Source: Methanohalophilus mahii DSM 5219 (GTDB taxonomy: Archaea > Halobacteriota > Methanosarcinia > Methanosarcinales > Methanosarcinaceae). Taken from it: a DNA stretch of 64,000 bases. The translations under genes were made by a program, and so were the position numbers. Positions 6,898 through 27,453 of this stretch are shown piece by piece; within the stretch, counting starts at the first letter, position 1; each line of letters begins with the position of its first letter. The notes below the pieces were generated by a model. The model was not told where the DNA came from and searched no databases. It worked only from the letters and a program-made list of their open reading frames with translations. The DNA lies in assembly GCF_000025865.1 (NCBI RefSeq), contig NC_014002.1, forward strand, positions 1,550,001 through 1,614,000, in the 5' to 3' direction.

Positions 6898-6983
6898 GAT
6901 GGGCAAGACATTGTAGAAAAACAGTTAGGATATGGTATGTTGGTGGTGGTACGATATGAAATCTGTTTTCAATCTTGCCCATC
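6898..6983 (+). repeat. Hairpin repeat element, copy A
   Basis: An outer stem GATGGGCAAGA (6898-6908) pairs perfectly with TCTTGCCCATC (6973-6983). An inner stem GAAAAACAG (6916-6924) pairs with CTGTTTTC (6963-6970) with one bulged A. The apical loop (6925-6962) contains GGTGGTGGTACGATATGAAA. Copy C at 12802-12887, read on the minus strand, has the same layout and the same loop core but different stem bases that still pair. It lies directly upstream of the histidine kinase start. It is either a small structured RNA or a MITE-like repeat. Confidence 0.65.
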
Positions 6984-7203
6984 TATATATTATATATAGT
7001 TAATACTATATTAAGATATGTAACCGCGTGAACTATAATTAATAGTGAATATATTTAACAAATAGAAATAATTATATATTTAATATATAAACAATGAATT
7101 ATTGCTTTAAAATATTAAATCCGGTTAAAATTTTCAAGACAAATGTTTTTTATGTTATCATCTATATGCAGTAATTGCAACCCGTGTAGTGGTATACGAG
7201 TAT

Positions 7204-7274
7204 AAGTAGGACTCCAATCAAAAATTCGGTGGTGGTATGAGTGGTACAAAAAACGCGGTATTGGAGTCTTACTT
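7204..7274 (+). repeat. Hairpin repeat element, copy B (divergent)
   Basis: A 15-base inverted repeat (7204-7218 against 7260-7274, one mismatch, AAGTAGGACTCCAAT type) encloses a 41-base loop with GGTGGTGGTATGAGTGGTAC. The loop resembles the core in copies A and C, while the stem sequence is unrelated. No clear inner stem is seen. Confidence 0.5.
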
Positions 7275-7553
7275 GGTCTTTAACATCCCTCAAAAAATAA
7301 AACGATTTTTCTATTTCAGTTTTCTCCAATTTGCTATAAGTAACTGATTCCAATCATAATGCCTTCTGATACGTTATACAATTGAAATTATTAACTTCAT
7401 CCAGTCCCTATGGATTTCTCAAATATCTTATCTCTCCTTTACAAAGCCAACTTTTCTTTCTCTTAATAATTAACATCGATATTTTTAGAGGAAACATGTT
7501 ATATCCATGCCATCCCAATTACTAATAGTCTAATTTGGGCGAGTAGGAGAAAC

Positions 7554-7976
7554 ATGATTCATCATGATAAAGTGTTTGATACAGTTATACGATATGTTAC
7601 TTTTTCCATCCTTTATGTACTATTAATAGCAATAATTGTGGGGTTACTAAATCTTATATATAATGTTTTATATATACTGTATGAATTTCTTGGCGGCAAT
7701 TTTATCCACATAAATTTCATCGAGATAGTTGTTGGCGTTCTTACAATTTTTATCCTTATTGACCTTTTCAAGACTTTCGTTGATTATCGTGAACATAAAC
7801 GAATCAGACTTGTATACATAACAGATGCTACTATTTTGATAGTTATGCGTGAAATAGCAGTGGGTGTTTATGTAAGTCGAATCGAATATGAATTTATTTT
7901 AAGTTTATCAATATTACTACTTGTATTGGGTATAATACGACTATTATCTGTAAAATATCCTACTGATAATGTATGA
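7554..7976 (+). CDS. PsiE-like membrane protein
   Basis: A 140-aa protein with four predicted membrane segments (about residues 15-40, 55-75, 85-105 and 112-132) and a charged stretch VDYREHKRIR between the second and third. The overall pattern matches the PsiE family (phosphate-starvation-inducible in E. coli), whose biochemical role is unknown. The start ATG has AGGAG 6 bases upstream. It sits alone in the right part of the tRNA-bounded island, in strongly AT-rich sequence, so it may be a cargo gene. Whether it responds to phosphate here cannot be seen. Confidence 0.7.
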   Translation: MIHHDKVFDTVIRYVTFSILYVLLIAIIVGLLNLIYNVLYILYEFLGGNFIHINFIEIVVGVLTIFILIDLFKTFVDYREHKRIRLVYITDATILIVMREIAVGVYVSRIEYEFILSLSILLLVLGIIRLLSVKYPTDNV

Positions 7977-8038
7977 TCTTCTATCCCTGTCATTTGCAAT
8001 GAATAGACAAGTATAGAGATTTCCAATTAAATTTCTCC

Positions 8039-8067
8039 GAGTTTCCCACACACGTGGGGATGAAACG
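8039..8067 (+). repeat. Solitary type I-E-like CRISPR repeat
   Basis: A 29-base unit starts GAGTTTCCCAC and ends GTGGGGATGAAACG. It has the length and layout of type I-E CRISPR repeats: a CCCAC/GTGGG hairpin and a GATGAAAC-like 3' tail. Against the E. coli repeat as I remember it, about 21 of 29 positions agree, and the stem differences are paired (CCCGC/GCGGG to CCCAC/GTGGG). No second copy follows at spacer distance and there are no cas genes, so this is not an array. The last bases CG run straight into the right attachment repeat. Confidence 0.5.
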
Positions 8068-8087
8068 GTTAGGCCCACCAAAATATT
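8066..8087 (+). repeat. Right attachment repeat (attR-like)
   Basis: Exact 22-base copy of 2981-3002: a detached piece of the tRNA 3' end including CCA. No other tRNA parts surround it, so it is not a functional tRNA. It marks the right boundary of the putative island. Confidence 0.65.
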
Positions 8088-8161
8088 ATACTAATCCCAA
8101 ACATCCAACGATTTTTAATTATAACATCTTTTTATGTACCCAGGAGCAGACACTTCTTATT

Positions 8162-9562
8162 TCAGGAAACATGCCAGTCACTGTAGACATACTCAACACC
8201 AGTATTTGATCCAACAACCCGGATTCCAATCCGATACGTCTCTCCCACAGGAACCTTCAGGTTCGAAACCTCATAAGAGACTGCTTCATCCACATCAATA
8301 TCGGGGATCTGGTCGCTTGCAACCTGGTCCCAGACCATGCCCTCCTGTGTGGCTTCAAGGGCAGTGTAAATAATGACATCTTCGGCTTTTGCAGAACCAA
8401 CATTCTCTACCTCGATATCAAGGTCAATGTAGGAAAAACGGGAATCGTGTCTTCCACCGCCTGCAAAGTCAACTGCAATTTCTGGATAGCCGGCAGTAAT
8501 GGGAATTATCCGAGCATCGGAATTCCTATATACAGTGGGAATCCTGCCCACTTCCCAGCCTGAATTTGTTGTTTCAAGGTAGAAATATTTCACTCCCAAG
8601 TAATCATAATAACTTCCGGGAAAGTCATCGCTGCCCCTTACCCCCACAGCCATATGACCGGGCAATTCAATCAGCGACACGCCATATCCCATGTCATACA
8701 AAAGTGCCGCAAGGAGGATAGAGGAATCTTCACAATCCCCGCCTCCGTGGTACATTGTTTCAAAAGGGAACCTGGGATATTCATCATAACCTGCAGAAAC
8801 ACTGTCACTGACATAAGGAAGGGACTGGACAAAAAGCATGGTTATGTAAGGAATTTCCTCCCGACCGTAACCTGCCTCCTCTGCCAGATTTTCCATTTGT
8901 AATGTGATCTGTGATATGAATGCGTCATCATAAGGGTCATTTACAAAATGCACCCAGTGACGATAACGGGTTCTCTGTGAATATAATTCATAAGCTTCTG
9001 TGTCATATCTGGCCTGGAGCTGGAATTGCCTGTCGTCATACTCCCATACATAATTCCTGGTGATTGAGTCTTTTTCAATTCTGACCGTTGGTTTCCTTTC
9101 ACTAGCCGGGGCAGGAAAATCTACATCCAGATATATTTCCGGTTTCAAAGTGTATGATAAGTCGATGACAAAGCTGTTATCGTATATACTGTCCAGTTTG
9201 ATTGAATAGATTATGAACTGCTCTTCAGGGTCCCATACATCATAACTGCGGCCAGTAAATATCTTTTTAGTACCATATTCATAGCCATCTTTCCTCAAAG
9301 ATAAGATCGAATAGCCGTCTTTTCGGTTTATATCCAGTACCTTCAAAGAATAACCATTATCAATATCAAGTATCGCAGTTTTCTTCAGGGTTGCATTGTA
9401 CACTTTTACATCAGTTTCCGGTGAATCAGGTGTAGAAACATCATCAACAGAGGTTTGATCCTCTGGAATTTCAACGGTTGAGTTTGCTTCTTCTGTGCAA
9501 CCCATAAAGGAAAGGGACAGAAAGACAATTACAAAAACAGAAGTCAATTTACTTTTTTGCAT
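8162..9562 (-). CDS. Transglutaminase-like lipoprotein
   Basis: A 466-aa exported protein. The N-terminus (KSKLTSVFVIVFLSLSFMGC) is a lipoprotein signal with Cys22 as the likely lipid site, followed by an acidic Ser/Thr-rich linker. The middle has a transglutaminase-like core: the catalytic-type Cys in GGDCEDSS (about 275), His in LPGHMAVGV (about 303) and a downstream acidic position. The C-terminus resembles a beta-rich CARDB-like domain (DLDIEVENVGSAKAEDV). It probably acts on the outer face of the membrane or in the S-layer zone as a protease or isopeptidase-like enzyme. An AGGATGTG site precedes the ATG. A second, non-lipoprotein relative is at 26311. Confidence 0.75.
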   Translation of the reverse strand: MQKSKLTSVFVIVFLSLSFMGCTEEANSTVEIPEDQTSVDDVSTPDSPETDVKVYNATLKKTAILDIDNGYSLKVLDINRKDGYSILSLRKDGYEYGTKKIFTGRSYDVWDPEEQFIIYSIKLDSIYDNSFVIDLSYTLKPEIYLDVDFPAPASERKPTVRIEKDSITRNYVWEYDDRQFQLQARYDTEAYELYSQRTRYRHWVHFVNDPYDDAFISQITLQMENLAEEAGYGREEIPYITMLFVQSLPYVSDSVSAGYDEYPRFPFETMYHGGGDCEDSSILLAALLYDMGYGVSLIELPGHMAVGVRGSDDFPGSYYDYLGVKYFYLETTNSGWEVGRIPTVYRNSDARIIPITAGYPEIAVDFAGGGRHDSRFSYIDLDIEVENVGSAKAEDVIIYTALEATQEGMVWDQVASDQIPDIDVDEAVSYEVSNLKVPVGETYRIGIRVVGSNTGVEYVYSDWHVS

Positions 9563-10117
9563 GACACATCCTGATTGATCTCAAAATTGAAATATACCAT
9601 TGACATTGGTTTACCAAAGCCTAAGATTCAGCTTATTTCAAAAAACCATTCATACCTATGTACTATTTTTCAGACACCATATTCAACCACGCGAAGAATC
9701 GTTCTATTCTATGTGCCTCTATTCTGATATGAGCCATAATCTATTCTTGTAGGTCTGCATCTTTATCCAGGATTTTTATTCCTGATATTTATTGGAATGA
9801 TCAATACCTGACTATTTTTTGAATTATAATTCTTTGCAGAGTCCCGATTTTCTAATGGTAGAATAATCAACTCTAAAGTAAATGAATGCTGCGTTACATC
9901 CATTGGGTATATCCCATGAATATACTTGATATTATGTGATTCAAGGATACATAACGTCCTTATTCTCAAATTTTTCGAGTGGAAACCAAGGTGATGTCGG
10001 ATTTTTCGACCACAATTACCCTCCATTTCATACTGCCAAAAAATCCGATAAAGACATGAGGAGAACTATAATTCCCCCCTCTCCTCAGAATTGCTTTCTG
10101 CTAAAAATAGGCTTATT
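9563..10117. other. Gene-free stretch with a 10-bp inverted repeat
   Basis: No supported gene. A perfect inverted repeat TCGGATTTTT (9997-10006) / AAAAATCCGA (10039-10048) with a 32-base loop lies about 70 bases beyond the AhpD-like gene end and could be a terminator or a remnant. An 87-codon minus-strand frame at 9763-10026 runs through it but has no recognisable content. Confidence 0.4.
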
Positions 10118-10396
10118 TTACTTTTCCTTCTGGTCAACATGTCGCAGTCCTGACCCCAGACGAACCAGTGATGCTACCAGAATTGCTTCTTCGATTTCGG
10201 AATCTTTTAAACCTGCATTGCGAGCAAAATTTTTGTGGTGGGATACACATTCATCACATCCCACAGCCACAGCACTTGCAAGAGCCAGCAGTTTTTTAGT
10301 TTTATTATCGATGGCACCATCCTGCATGATGGTATCTTTTAAGTTCGAGAAGTCCTTTTCCCAGTTCGACTTTTTGTCATCCATAGAAATAGTCAT
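10118..10396 (-). CDS. Carboxymuconolactone decarboxylase/AhpD-like protein
   Basis: A 92-aa protein with the AhpD-type redox motif: an acidic helix, then CDECVSHHKNFARNAG (CxxC followed three residues later by His), then the EIEEAILVASLVRLGSG helix. Family members are small all-helical proteins with alkylhydroperoxidase or thiol-disulfide activity; many small ones are uncharacterised. Its start overlaps the stop of the upstream regulator gene by four bases (ATGA), so the two are co-transcribed and translationally coupled. The role is probably redox or detoxification under control of the regulator. Confidence 0.8.
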   Translation of the reverse strand: MTISMDDKKSNWEKDFSNLKDTIMQDGAIDNKTKKLLALASAVAVGCDECVSHHKNFARNAGLKDSEIEEAILVASLVRLGSGLRHVDQKEK

Positions 10397-10737
10397 TTAT
10401 GTCCTCCGCTTTTTACATTTTCCATATATGCTTCTGCCCGGGGAGAAGGAAAATACACGATAATTCCGTTTTTCTCCTCTTTCTCAACGTAAAGGGCATT
10501 TTCCAACATTCCTATATGGAACTTGGCCTCCATTTTGTTCAGCTCCATTTCATTTTGCAAATCCTCGAGACTCATGGGTGATTCAAGTAAAAGAGATAGT
10601 ATTTTTCTGCGGATGTTATTCTGAAGTGTTTTTAGCCCGGTGCTGTGATCTTCAGTTGGGTTGCGGTTGAGTTTACCTTCTTTTCTGACTTTACTAAGCC
10701 ATTCCTCTTTTCTTTTCTTCAGATCTTCATCAGACAT
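10393..10737 (-). CDS. Winged-helix transcriptional regulator (ArsR-like)
   Basis: A 114-aa protein. After a charged N-terminal helix (DEDLKKRKEEWLSKVRKEGK) comes a winged helix domain, LQNNIRRKILSLLLESPMSLEDLQNEMELNKMEAKFHIGMLENALYVEKEEKNG in outline, with a helix-turn-helix and a wing ending GIIVYFPSPRAEAYME. There are no metal-binding cysteines, so a metal sensor role is unlikely. It shares an operon with the AhpD-like gene (ATGA overlap) and probably controls it. The start ATG at 10737 is preferred; a frame three codons longer exists. Confidence 0.7.
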   Translation of the reverse strand: MSDEDLKKRKEEWLSKVRKEGKLNRNPTEDHSTGLKTLQNNIRRKILSLLLESPMSLEDLQNEMELNKMEAKFHIGMLENALYVEKEEKNGIIVYFPSPRAEAYMENVKSGGHK

Positions 10738-10807
10738 AGCAATCAATCATATGCATCCATCATCAACTATATTTTTTGTGGTATTTTGCATGAAATTAGC
10801 ATTCAGC

Positions 10808-10975
10808 TAATTTTCCCATCTTCTAGATGTCAAGCAGAGTGTATCAAGGATCAGGAATCGTGTTATTGCCAGAGTCTTCAGAGAACTTGACCTAATAGAT
10901 CAGTAGGGTAGTGGTTTCCGCCTTATCCTGAAGGAAGCTGAAGAACCTGGAAGGCCTTATAACCTATCTCTTTGA
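10808..10975 (+). pseudogene. Decayed C-terminus of an AlbA_2/RecG-like ATP-binding protein
   Basis: Reading the plus strand in the frame of 10808 gives SVSRIRNRVIARVFREL, DLIDQ, an in-frame TAG at 10904-10906, then GSGFRLILKEAEEPGRP and a TGA at 10973. Intact relatives read RNxVIARVFRELxLIEQWGSGxRRI, so the TAG sits where Trp (TGG) is expected. This is the C-terminal winged-helix piece of the Schlafen/AlbA_2-type transcriptional regulators often annotated as 'ATP-dependent DNA helicase RecG-like'. The N-terminal part is missing. It is a gene remnant. Confidence 0.65.
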
Positions 10976-11159
10976 CAAATTCAATAATACAGGTCTGCTC
11001 GATCCAAAAGAAGACGATGGTTTTGAAATATTCCAAGACTTATTTATAAGAAATAAACACGAATCGATATACAATGAAGTAAGATATAGATTAAAGAATG
11101 CAACTATCCCTCCACAGAACTTTGATCTAACAACATATAAAATCATAGTCACCAAATGA
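10932..11159 (+). pseudogene. Unassigned gene fragment, no start
   Basis: An open plus-strand frame of 75 codons overlaps the AlbA_2-like remnant in another frame, has no plausible start, and ends FDLTTYKIIVTK then TGA. The composition (ITYLFDKFNNTGLLDPKEDDGFEIFQDL) looks like real protein rather than noise. It may be the tail of the same decayed gene after a frameshift or a different remnant. I do not recognise the family. Confidence 0.35.
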
Positions 11160-11370
11160 ATCAATCTGGTTCTTGATAGGAGTGGAACCAAAAAGTCATA
11201 CATATTCAACTTGCTTATCCGAATGAAAAAGGATTTGATGAAATGAAATCTAAGTAAATGAGCAAAGAATCAGGGAAATACACCTAACCATCACTCCTTT
11301 TCATATTCGTGCTTTCCCTGATTCATGTGGGTTTATTCTTAAAAATATAAGTCCAAGAACTTATACCCCT

Positions 11371-11499
11371 TCAGTCCTTCCGCTTCTTTTCTTCTTCAAG
11401 AACAAACTTCTTTCCACAAAGGTCACATTTCCCATCCTCTGTTACATTTGGTTGTCTTGGTGCATCACCACCACAAACTCCACATTTTACCATTTCCAT
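11371..11499 (-). CDS. Small zinc-ribbon protein
   Basis: A 42-aa protein beginning MEMVKCGVCGG with two CxxC knuckles (KCGVCGG and KCDLCGKK) 16 residues apart, followed by a strongly charged tail (LEEEKKRKD). This is the pattern of a minimal zinc ribbon. The start has a very strong GGGAGGTG ribosome binding site, which supports it being a real gene despite its size. It stands alone between decayed sequence and tRNA-Thr. Function unknown; binding to nucleic acid or a protein partner is only a guess. Confidence 0.7.
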   Translation of the reverse strand: MEMVKCGVCGGDAPRQPNVTEDGKCDLCGKKFVLEEEKKRKD

Positions 11500-11663
11500 C
11501 ACCTCCCACAAACTATATACGGCTAAAAGTTTGGGCGACAATGGATATATAATTGATCATCCTCAAAAAAAGATTATTATGTAGAAGTATATTATGAATT
11601 TGATACATCCATATAAATCTCATTGGACAATGTGTCAAGATATATATTGGCCTGAAAATAGAA

Positions 11664-11735
11664 AGCCTCGGGCGGGATTCGAACCCGCGACCTCGTCCTT
11701 ACCAAGGACGCACTACACCCCTAAGCCACCGAGGC
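11664..11735 (-). tRNA. tRNA-Thr (GGT)
   Basis: Minus-strand cloverleaf of 72 nt: acceptor GCCTCGG/CCGAGGC, anticodon stem CGTCC/GGACG with loop TTGGTAA giving GGT, T arm GCGGGTTCGAATCCCGC. The discriminator is T, as expected for archaeal tRNA-Thr. CCA is not encoded. Confidence 0.95.
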
Positions 11736-11805
11736 ACGCTTTTCTTGACTGCGACCCCTCAATAGGAGTGATACCATAATAAGTTTTCGGTTTTCCGGAT
11801 GTGGT

Positions 11806-12324
11806 TCAGAGCGACCAGCGACCATCTGCAGGGAAGCGTTCTTTGATCCACATGAGTGTGTCATTGTGGTGCACAATACGATAGGTCCTTGAGAGATAAT
11901 CGGGACTGCCGAAAAGAGGGCCATCAGCCTCCATCTGTATGGTATCAAAGTCCCTGCGGGTTTCCATGCCGTAATTGCGCAGGATCTTACCAATCGGTAT
12001 ATCGGCACGCATCATGTCCCTGCGAACCTCTTCTGGCATTCGGCCTATAGGAGAGAGGGAAACCGCATGAACATAAGGGACACCATCCGCCACCAATCGC
12101 ACGGTGCGATGATTCACTTCTTCGCCAATAGCCACATCCAAAAGCCCGGCCATTTCCTCATCTGCTTTTACAAGATGCTGATCCTCGGTAATTACCTCAA
12201 CTTCGTGGCGGGTCATAATCTCCAGCAGGAAGGTGACAGAACCATCGGTACCTGCACAGACACGCAGGCATGTGGGAATCTCAAAAGCCTTGAGATCCCT
12301 GAGAAAGTCACGATTGACAAACAC
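11806..12324 (-). CDS. Chorismate lyase (UbiC-like, DUF98)
   Basis: A 172-aa protein of the chorismate pyruvate-lyase fold: conserved RxxxL and ITEDQHLVKADEEMAGLL, then VNHRTVRLV, SLSPIGRMP and the C-terminal RTYRIVHHNDTLMWIKERFP. In methanogens this family (the MJ0807 type) releases 4-hydroxybenzoate from chorismate, the aromatic precursor of methanopterin, so a role in C1-carrier synthesis is likely. The start appears to be GTG at 12324. It lies 11 bases behind the DUF5611-like gene, so the two probably share a transcript. Confidence 0.75.
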   Translation of the reverse strand: MFVNRDFLRDLKAFEIPTCLRVCAGTDGSVTFLLEIMTRHEVEVITEDQHLVKADEEMAGLLDVAIGEEVNHRTVRLVADGVPYVHAVSLSPIGRMPEEVRRDMMRADIPIGKILRNYGMETRRDFDTIQMEADGPLFGSPDYLSRTYRIVHHNDTLMWIKERFPADGRWSL

Positions 12325-12335
12325 GTATGAACCTA

Positions 12336-12647
12336 TTATTTGGAAACTGCCTTCTTGGCATTCTTAACTCTTTCCTTGGCAGTGTAACCAGTAGCCTTAT
12401 AGAGAAAATTGCGGAATCTCTTGTTAGTATCAAGAATTACCTCATCCGGGACACCTTCAGCTTCAGAATTCGTGTCAACTACAAGTTTCTTACCGTTCAT
12501 CCACACAGAAAGTTCTTTCATGACACCGTATGAAGTAACCAATTTATCCCCTTTTCTGGATATATCGGAAGGGAAACATTCCTCAAGCACTTCATAGATA
12601 CGTTCAATATCAGGTGAATGACCACGTTTTAATTTGTATTCCTGCAT
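12336..12647 (-). CDS. Conserved archaeal protein, DUF5611-like
   Basis: A 103-aa soluble protein (MQEYKLKRGHSPDIERIYEVL at the start, KERVKNAKKAVSK at the end) with alternating short helices and strands and a basic tail. It resembles the DUF5611 family found in methanogens. No catalytic motif is recognisable. It is the first gene of a pair with the chorismate lyase. Function unknown. Confidence 0.6.
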   Translation of the reverse strand: MQEYKLKRGHSPDIERIYEVLEECFPSDISRKGDKLVTSYGVMKELSVWMNGKKLVVDTNSEAEGVPDEVILDTNKRFRNFLYKATGYTAKERVKNAKKAVSK

Positions 12648-12801
12648 GTCAATCGATTAATTACATACCGGCAGACATGGATAAATGTTTTGGTCTAAGA
12701 AAATGATTCGAAGTTGAACCGTATAAAAAACAAACAAATAAAGTATAATCATTCATATATAGAAATAATATTTAAATACTTTAATATCATAGGTCCATTT
12801 C

Positions 12802-12887
12802 GTAATGAGCAAGGCTGAAAAGCAGCTTTCATATCGTACCACCACCATACCACCAATCTGCTTTTTTTACGATACCTTGCTCATTAC
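12802..12887 (-). repeat. Hairpin repeat element, copy C
   Basis: The outer arms GTAATGAGCAAGG (12802-12814) and CCTTGCTCATTAC (12875-12887) are perfect complements over 13 bases. The inner arms AAAAGCAG (12818-12825) and CTGCTTTT (12858-12865) are perfect over 8. On the minus strand the loop reads TGGTGGTGGTACGATATGAA, as in copy A. Stem bases differ from A at several positions but pairing is kept. It starts about 14 bases past the stop of the radical SAM gene at 12901, so on the minus strand it lies in that gene's 3' region. Confidence 0.65.
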
Positions 12888-26310: not shown

Positions 26311-27453
26311 ATGGGGAAAAAGGGGTTCATTTTACTGGTAGCCCTGATTGGCATACTTGTCTATATCGGCGGCCAGAATCCGGAAATTCTGCAGGAAAAA
26401 ATTCCTATACCCGCTGACAGGAGTATGGAAACTGCCTACGAACTCGATACACAAACCCTGACATACCCACAGGTAAACATTCTTGATCAAAAATATGACG
26501 AAAAACCCACCCAAAGTAATATACTGTCCCCGGGCTACAGCATATCAAGTGCTTACAGTTATGGTGAACCTGTCCGGAAAAATACCGGTATGCTCAAAAT
26601 GACCATCACAAATACGGGAAATAGTGAAATTTACGTATATGGATACGGCCTCCGGCCGGCAAGTGGAAGTGGCATATTCGATTTTGAAAGTGGATACCTG
26701 ATACCTCCGGGAGAACAAAAAGAACTGGGATATGCCTGTTTTGACGTACCCGACAAAATGACAATAAAACTAGAGCCTTTTATAAAGATAATGGCAGCTT
26801 CCGAATCGGGTAAATGGCACGATTATGGGATGCAGAATTTTGACACAATTGAAATCAAAACCCGGGCGGCTGCAGCAGAAGTGAATCCACAATATACGTA
26901 CAACCCGGCCTATCTTTTCGAAAAGATAAACTCCCTTGTCAATTCATCCGATCCACAGGTCAGAAGCAAAGCTGCAAAAGCAGCAAAAGAATATCCCGGC
27001 AAATACAATATTTACCAGGTATGTGCCCTCTATGATAATTTAATAGAAGATGTGGATTATATCAGCGATCCAAGGGGATCGGATTACTGGGTCGGGCCGG
27101 GTGAGACCCTGGAAATCGGGGCAGGAGATTGTGATGATTACGCCATCACAATGGCTTCCCTGGTAGAAGCAATTGGGGGCACATCCCGGATATACCTGAC
27201 CGAAACACATGCCTATGCGGCAGTTTACATAGGAACAGAGGAAGACCTCGATCGTATCTCGGGGGCCATGGAGCAATACTACGGATGTGTGCCCATATAT
27301 TATGCAACCGACAAATATGGTTGCTGGTTACTTCTTGACCCCTCGGCAGGCATGTATGCAGGAAGCCTGCCGGTGGAAACCGCTCCCACAGAAAACGGCT
27401 GGACATACACCAGGCAAACAAATGTAACAGTAATAGATATTGCCGCAAGATGA
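26311..27453 (+). CDS. Membrane-anchored transglutaminase-like protein
   Basis: A 380-aa protein with an N-terminal signal anchor (FILLVALIGILVYIGG), a beta-rich domain (about 80-190) and a transglutaminase-like domain with the catalytic triad: Cys in GAGDCDDYAI, His in TETHAYAAV and Asp in LLDPSAG. It probably acts outside the cell. It sits between pth2 and truD with gaps of about ten bases, so it is co-transcribed with RNA genes although its role looks unrelated. AAGGATGAT precedes the ATG. Confidence 0.75.
   Translation: MGKKGFILLVALIGILVYIGGQNPEILQEKIPIPADRSMETAYELDTQTLTYPQVNILDQKYDEKPTQSNILSPGYSISSAYSYGEPVRKNTGMLKMTITNTGNSEIYVYGYGLRPASGSGIFDFESGYLIPPGEQKELGYACFDVPDKMTIKLEPFIKIMAASESGKWHDYGMQNFDTIEIKTRAAAAEVNPQYTYNPAYLFEKINSLVNSSDPQVRSKAAKAAKEYPGKYNIYQVCALYDNLIEDVDYISDPRGSDYWVGPGETLEIGAGDCDDYAITMASLVEAIGGTSRIYLTETHAYAAVYIGTEEDLDRISGAMEQYYGCVPIYYATDKYGCWLLLDPSAGMYAGSLPVETAPTENGWTYTRQTNVTVIDIAAR

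Follow-up and report, generated by a model that had tools for sequence, protein, structure and literature searches.

Three hairpins in the stretch of the Methanohalophilus mahii genome analysed here (the window: 64,000 nucleotides, G000:C1:1550001-1614000 of the complete 2,012,424-base genome) appear to belong to a multi-copy family of trans-acting small RNAs that would block translation by covering ribosome-binding sites, a reading to which we give a probability of roughly 0.7. Elements A, C and, less certainly, B would be genes for small RNAs of about 85-110 nt, transcribed from the strand with CACC in the loop under an archaeal TATA box that precedes the stem by about 30 nt. Each RNA is predicted to fold into a long hairpin whose stem varies in sequence while remaining paired. 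The hairpin loop, UUUCAUAUCGUACCACC, would be largely unpaired, and its sequence is the reverse complement of a translation start, GGUGGUACGAU-AUG-AAA. This loop would pair in trans with the GGUGGUACGAU-AUG of target mRNAs, mainly those of secreted and surface proteins, and would thereby prevent translation initiation. We infer repression as the outcome from the position of the pairing and from three precedents in Methanosarcina mazei, where loop 2 of sRNA154, sRNA41 and a linker of sRNA162 mask the ribosome-binding sites of target mRNAs (PMC5867862, PMC3510493). That the family comprises structured, conserved RNA genes with their own promoters is very likely from the comparisons below; that these RNAs function by pairing with start sites is probable.

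The original prediction placed all three hairpins exactly, and their parts are collected in Table 1. As it had claimed, A and C have an outer stem, an inner stem and a loop in common and their stem differences are compensated; judged by sequence, both are firm members of the family. Its inclusion of B held in so far as the loop is related, but B represents a subtype of its own and is a probable member; the one relative found is a B-like hairpin that lies next to an A-like copy in another genome (L047 in G007). On the strand that had been assumed at the outset, the fold energies of A, B and C each beat 200 of 200 dinucleotide shuffles (z = -5.0, -3.8 and -6.1, respectively).

Table 1. Hairpin elements of the window and their predicted parts (positions are those of the window).
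Feature	Position	Strand	Basis
Element A, predicted hairpin sRNA gene	6898..6983	-	Stems; homologues in own genome and genus
Stems of A: outer GATGGGCAAGAT/GTCTTGCCCATC, inner ACAG/CTGT	within 6898..6983	-	Sequence, fold
Loop of A, TTTCATATCGTACCACC, complement of GGTGGTACGAT-ATG-AAA	6945..6961	-	Exact 17-mer match
Candidate TATA box of A, TTAATATA, starting 31 nt before the stem	7007..7014	-	Sequence and family-wide position
Element B, second-subtype hairpin, weaker member	7204..7274	- (probable)	Stem, loop, one relative
Stem of B, AAGTAAGACTCCAA/TTGGAGTCCTACTT; loop contains GTACCACTCATACCACCACC	within 7204..7274	- (probable)	Sequence, fold
Element C, predicted hairpin sRNA gene	12802..12887	+	Stem GTAATGAGCAAGG/CCTTGCTCATTAC; six-species identity
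Loop of C, TTTCATATCGTACCACC, with a second motif, CATACCACC, after it	12827..12843	+	Exact match; 100% identity over six species
TATA box of C, TTTAAATA, starting 31 nt before the stem	12771..12778	+	Sequence, six-species alignment, family-wide position

The proposal that the stems covary under selection for an RNA structure was borne out on a larger set. Since a MAFFT alignment of 28 whole elements lost the register of the 3' arm, stems were aligned by register instead. In 39 distinct stems of the GCAAG/CTTGC type (10 bp), 93.3% of the cells are paired and seven of the ten stem pairs have changed on both sides. Cells with a double change number 62, as against 18.5 +/- 7.5 in shuffled stems and at most 18 when the stem was slid; kinship among the sequences inflates the comparison with shuffles, and the slid controls, which preserve kinship, give the same outcome. 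Loops of the same kind are also carried by other stems, namely GGTGAATAAAGTT/AACTTTATTCACC and, for the B type, CAAGTAAGACTTCT/AGAAGTCTTACTTG.

In six Methanohalophilus species element C occupies the same orthologous position, and it can be recognised there in a seventh species too. Mean pairwise identity across the six is 98.6% for the element and 100% for its loop. The values are lower for the flanking coding DNA (95.8 and 93.3%), for the TATA segment (88%), for the remaining intergenic DNA (82-85%) and for the spacer between TATA box and stem (64%). These figures bear on the suggestion that the hairpins are MITEs or other single-stranded-DNA elements moved by a transposase or recombinase. 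Copies are dispersed and locally tandem, as such an element would be, and the original prediction took them to spread; nevertheless, conservation above that of coding DNA, a fixed spacing from the promoter, unrelated stems bearing the same loop and the stable position of C in seven genomes make mobility highly improbable, and the viral contigs, phages and plasmids that were searched hold no copy. A cis-acting role, as a 5' UTR switch or terminator of adjacent genes, is also very unlikely. It would suit A, which ends about 21 nt ahead of the start codon of a histidine kinase gene on the same strand, but C has only convergent or divergent neighbours, other members stand beside unrelated genes, and the loop matches start sites elsewhere.

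The original prediction was right in expecting further copies in relatives: related elements are present in all eight Methanohalophilus genomes and in other genera, so that the hairpin family spans Methanohalophilus, Methanolobus, Methanococcoides and Methanomethylovorans. In M. mahii itself, a search with A returned five further places with E <= 4e-6, and the 12-mer core TCGTACCACCAC occurs nine times, eight of them on one strand (reversed control, 0). The pattern GCAAGN{5,30}TCATATCGTACCACC matched 43 stretches in 84,980 species genomes, 41 of which are from Methanosarcinaceae (Methanolobus, Methanococcoides, Methanohalophilus, Methanomethylovorans and MAGs); the remaining two probably arose by chance. 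An Rfam search gave no family matching the hairpins, in agreement with the earlier statement that no named family fits, and the family is previously unnamed. A Methanococcoides-type genome carries three hairpin copies 363 bases apart with a fourth nearby (L081, G063:C1:986923-989166), which by its sequence is a recent tandem duplication of a whole predicted sRNA gene with its promoter. Two M. mahii copies (L012 and L004, G000:C1:122546 and 128283) have downstream flanks that are alike past the element (TTTCCTTCCGTTTACGGTGGGAGAGGAATGTGTTCAT), and some copies therefore arose by duplication of a larger segment.

The strand assumed in the original prediction was rejected for the hairpins on the position of the promoter, and the opposite one, with TACCACC in the loop, is most likely read. 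Among 44 loci whose upstream sequences are dissimilar, 34 have a TATA-like box ahead of the hairpin on the CACC strand, where shuffles predict 22, and these boxes cluster at -29 to -37 before the stem, which makes UUUCAUAUCGUACCACC the likely RNA loop; on the other strand there are five and no cluster. Runs of at least five T follow 25 of 65 elements on the CACC strand and 11 of 65 on the opposite one. Read on the CACC strand, the stem pairs include 31 G-U and 7 A-C, in a count with two rows off register, and this excess favours that strand as the RNA.

Transcription of the GGTGG strand, yielding decoy ribosome-binding sites, leader peptides or RNAs that present a ribosome-binding site, is accordingly quite unlikely. 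Its appeal is that GGTGGTACGATATGAAA, when read, is a Shine-Dalgarno (SD) sequence with a start codon, and that Methanolobus leader RNAs and an array in genome G006 carry the motif in the GGTGG sense. Apart from the promoter position and the G-U counts, the ATG is missing in some members and the peptide that would follow it is not conserved. Leader peptides from this ATG were rejected as candidates, the frames being short and not conserved, and the peptide VVRYE (leader frame MVRYE in L118) was dropped on account of its absence elsewhere.

With the CACC strand as the RNA, the loop is an antisense of translation start sites: TTTCATATCGTACCACC is the reverse complement of GGTGGTACGAT-ATG-AAA. 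This complementarity to a ribosome-binding site together with a start codon was missed by the original prediction. The loop that it described as fixed is conserved, but the part that stays constant across genera is CATATCGTACCACC or its complement and not the repeat GGTGGTGGTA. Across 186 genomes of the order, this 14-mer is matched exactly about 130 times (reversed control, 1), never in a genome of g8, which we take to be Methanosarcina; matches outside Methanosarcinaceae in the same scan (L151-L155) did not resemble family members and were set aside.

Outside hairpins, the sense 14-mer GGTGGTACGATATG forms the ribosome-binding site and start codon of unrelated secreted or surface proteins. 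At ten examined non-hairpin places, with one-base spacer variants allowed, its ATG on the GGTGG strand begins a long frame. All ten frames have a signal-peptide-like start, and they fall into at least five unrelated families, among them PKD proteins, a CYLNDV-type fasciclin-domain protein and families without a model such as that of L190/L204; two of the set end in a PEF-CTERM sorting tail. At two more places the 14-mer ATG starts a zinc-ribbon protein. Because the bases flanking the 14-mer differ, homology of the genes does not explain the 14 bases that they share. The loop that the hairpins would expose is complementary to ribosome-binding sites in several mRNAs; within M. mahii itself the candidates are imperfect matches only. 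In three M. mahii paralogues (at 73, 104 and 128 kb) the loop has CGT instead of CAT and so covers no AUG.

The same loop could instead serve a protein, with its UACCACC motifs titrating or recruiting an RNA-binding protein as CsrB does with CsrA and the match to start sites being secondary. Such sponges usually take the form of multi-copy hairpins with a fixed loop, several elements contain at least two UACCACC motifs, and conservation of the loop would be expected here too. We consider this reading unlikely, since the conserved loop extends beyond ACCACC and complements SD sequence, spacer and AUG jointly, and no protein is known for the loop.

Masking of start sites by pairing, the reading that we prefer, has parallels in both archaea and bacteria. 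Like sRNA154, sRNA41 and sRNA162, the hairpins are intergenic, come from the same family of archaea and, as predicted sRNAs, would mask ribosome-binding sites. Each of those three, however, is by description a single RNA conserved within Methanosarcina, whereas the hairpins are multi-copy, lay one loop over SD sequence, spacer and AUG, and have a 14-mer absent from the presumed Methanosarcina. Among bacteria, a parallel exists in LhrC of Listeria and the sibling sRNAs of Neisseria, in which several like hairpins per genome expose an anti-RBS motif; the present family differs from them by its archaeal promoters, by the lack of any sequence relation and by a loop that reaches through the start codon. 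To our knowledge, targets are known for few archaeal sRNAs. In this case, sequence comparison by itself yielded a predicted sRNA family together with its pairing site, with candidate targets and with a common promoter operator in several genera, one of which has published dRNA-seq data that make the prediction directly testable. If it is true, a single RNA controls unrelated surface-protein genes in archaea through a common ribosome-binding-site word, much as sibling sRNAs do in bacteria.

No mRNA start in the M. mahii genome carries the exact 17-mer, and targets in this genome would therefore be imperfect matches. The best candidate encodes a 217-amino acid secreted protein (C1:961930-962581, minus strand), with a leader that contains both TGGTACGATAGGA and AGGTGGTATGAGATTATGAAAC and shows conservation across the genus; the second loop motif of C fits the GGTGGTATG form. 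When start sites were ranked by duplex in about 464 kb of the genome (20 stretches and the window), secreted-like proteins made up 7 of the top 18 compared with 60 of 495 overall, a modest enrichment that is suggestive only; the ranking includes one artefact, a hairpin read as an ORF.

Hairpins also share an upstream operator with a second set of putative RNAs. About 18 more sense copies of the 14-mer belong to putative RNAs that have no long frame and are preceded by a TATA box and a palindrome. The palindrome, close to TCATCATNATGATGA, precedes 17 of 18 of these leader RNAs with at least 11 of 14 bases matching, and 20 of 65 hairpins at a fixed distance; shuffles gave 1-2% in both cases. A scan of Methanohalophilus with one mismatch located it mostly at hairpins and leader RNAs, with a few matches inside coding sequence. 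Many Methanolobus hairpins without TCATCATNATGATGA (L192, L199, L201, L209 and others) have a different palindrome, near ATGTATGTTCATACAT, which lies about 10-40 nt before the stem, overlapping the TATA box or following it, and suggests another regulator in that genus. In one locus of the leader type (L065, G006:C3:431338-431499), a TCATCATAATGATTA palindrome is followed by a tandem array of four sense motifs. Every motif has a short frame to itself (MKAA or MNAA, then stop), and the array ends in the start site of a gene for a PKD/PEF-CTERM surface protein.

With the sense 14-mer under the shared operator, the leader RNAs are probably co-regulated targets or sponges. A three-part regulon of multi-copy hairpin sRNAs, surface-protein mRNAs with the 14-nt word and operator-sharing leader sponges, perhaps switched by cold or envelope stress, can be put forward only tentatively.

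A link to cold is offered by dRNA-seq of Methanolobus psychrophilus, which revealed nine conserved cold-induced sRNAs with a common upstream "cold box" (PMC5378194). Genome G144 is very likely that of strain R15, as the gene spanning its position 26,651 has the PAS/HisKA/REC layout given for Mpsy_0031 (PMC5378194). It contains hairpins (L187 and L188), with predicted loci at 1,428,468 on the minus strand and 887,927 on the plus strand. Promoter and palindrome also precede four leader RNAs in this genome, one of them at 2,696,038; in three of the four, the sense motif occurs as a variant that differs by one or two bases. L234, L235 and L236 (G144:C1:212731, 594325 and 2065404) are closely similar leader RNAs with palindrome, TATA box and RGGTACGATATGTAAC-like motifs, and on their sequence are good candidates for cold-box sRNAs; the nine cold-induced sRNAs may include leader RNAs. 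Beside its hairpins, R15 has GGTGG leader RNAs with a conserved palindrome upstream of the TATA box, a likeness to the cold box; the main text of PMC5378194 carries neither sequences nor proposed targets.

Two further observations concern M. mahii. An intergenic, RNA-like stretch at G000:C1:1216651 (L036) is possibly another sRNA with a related motif; it has three hairpins and a T-run, and CAAAATATCATACAACCACC is single-stranded in it. At 8041-8067 the window contains one copy of GTTTCCCACACACGTGGGGATGAAACG, which resembles an orphan CRISPR repeat and has no second copy in the window or the other loci examined.
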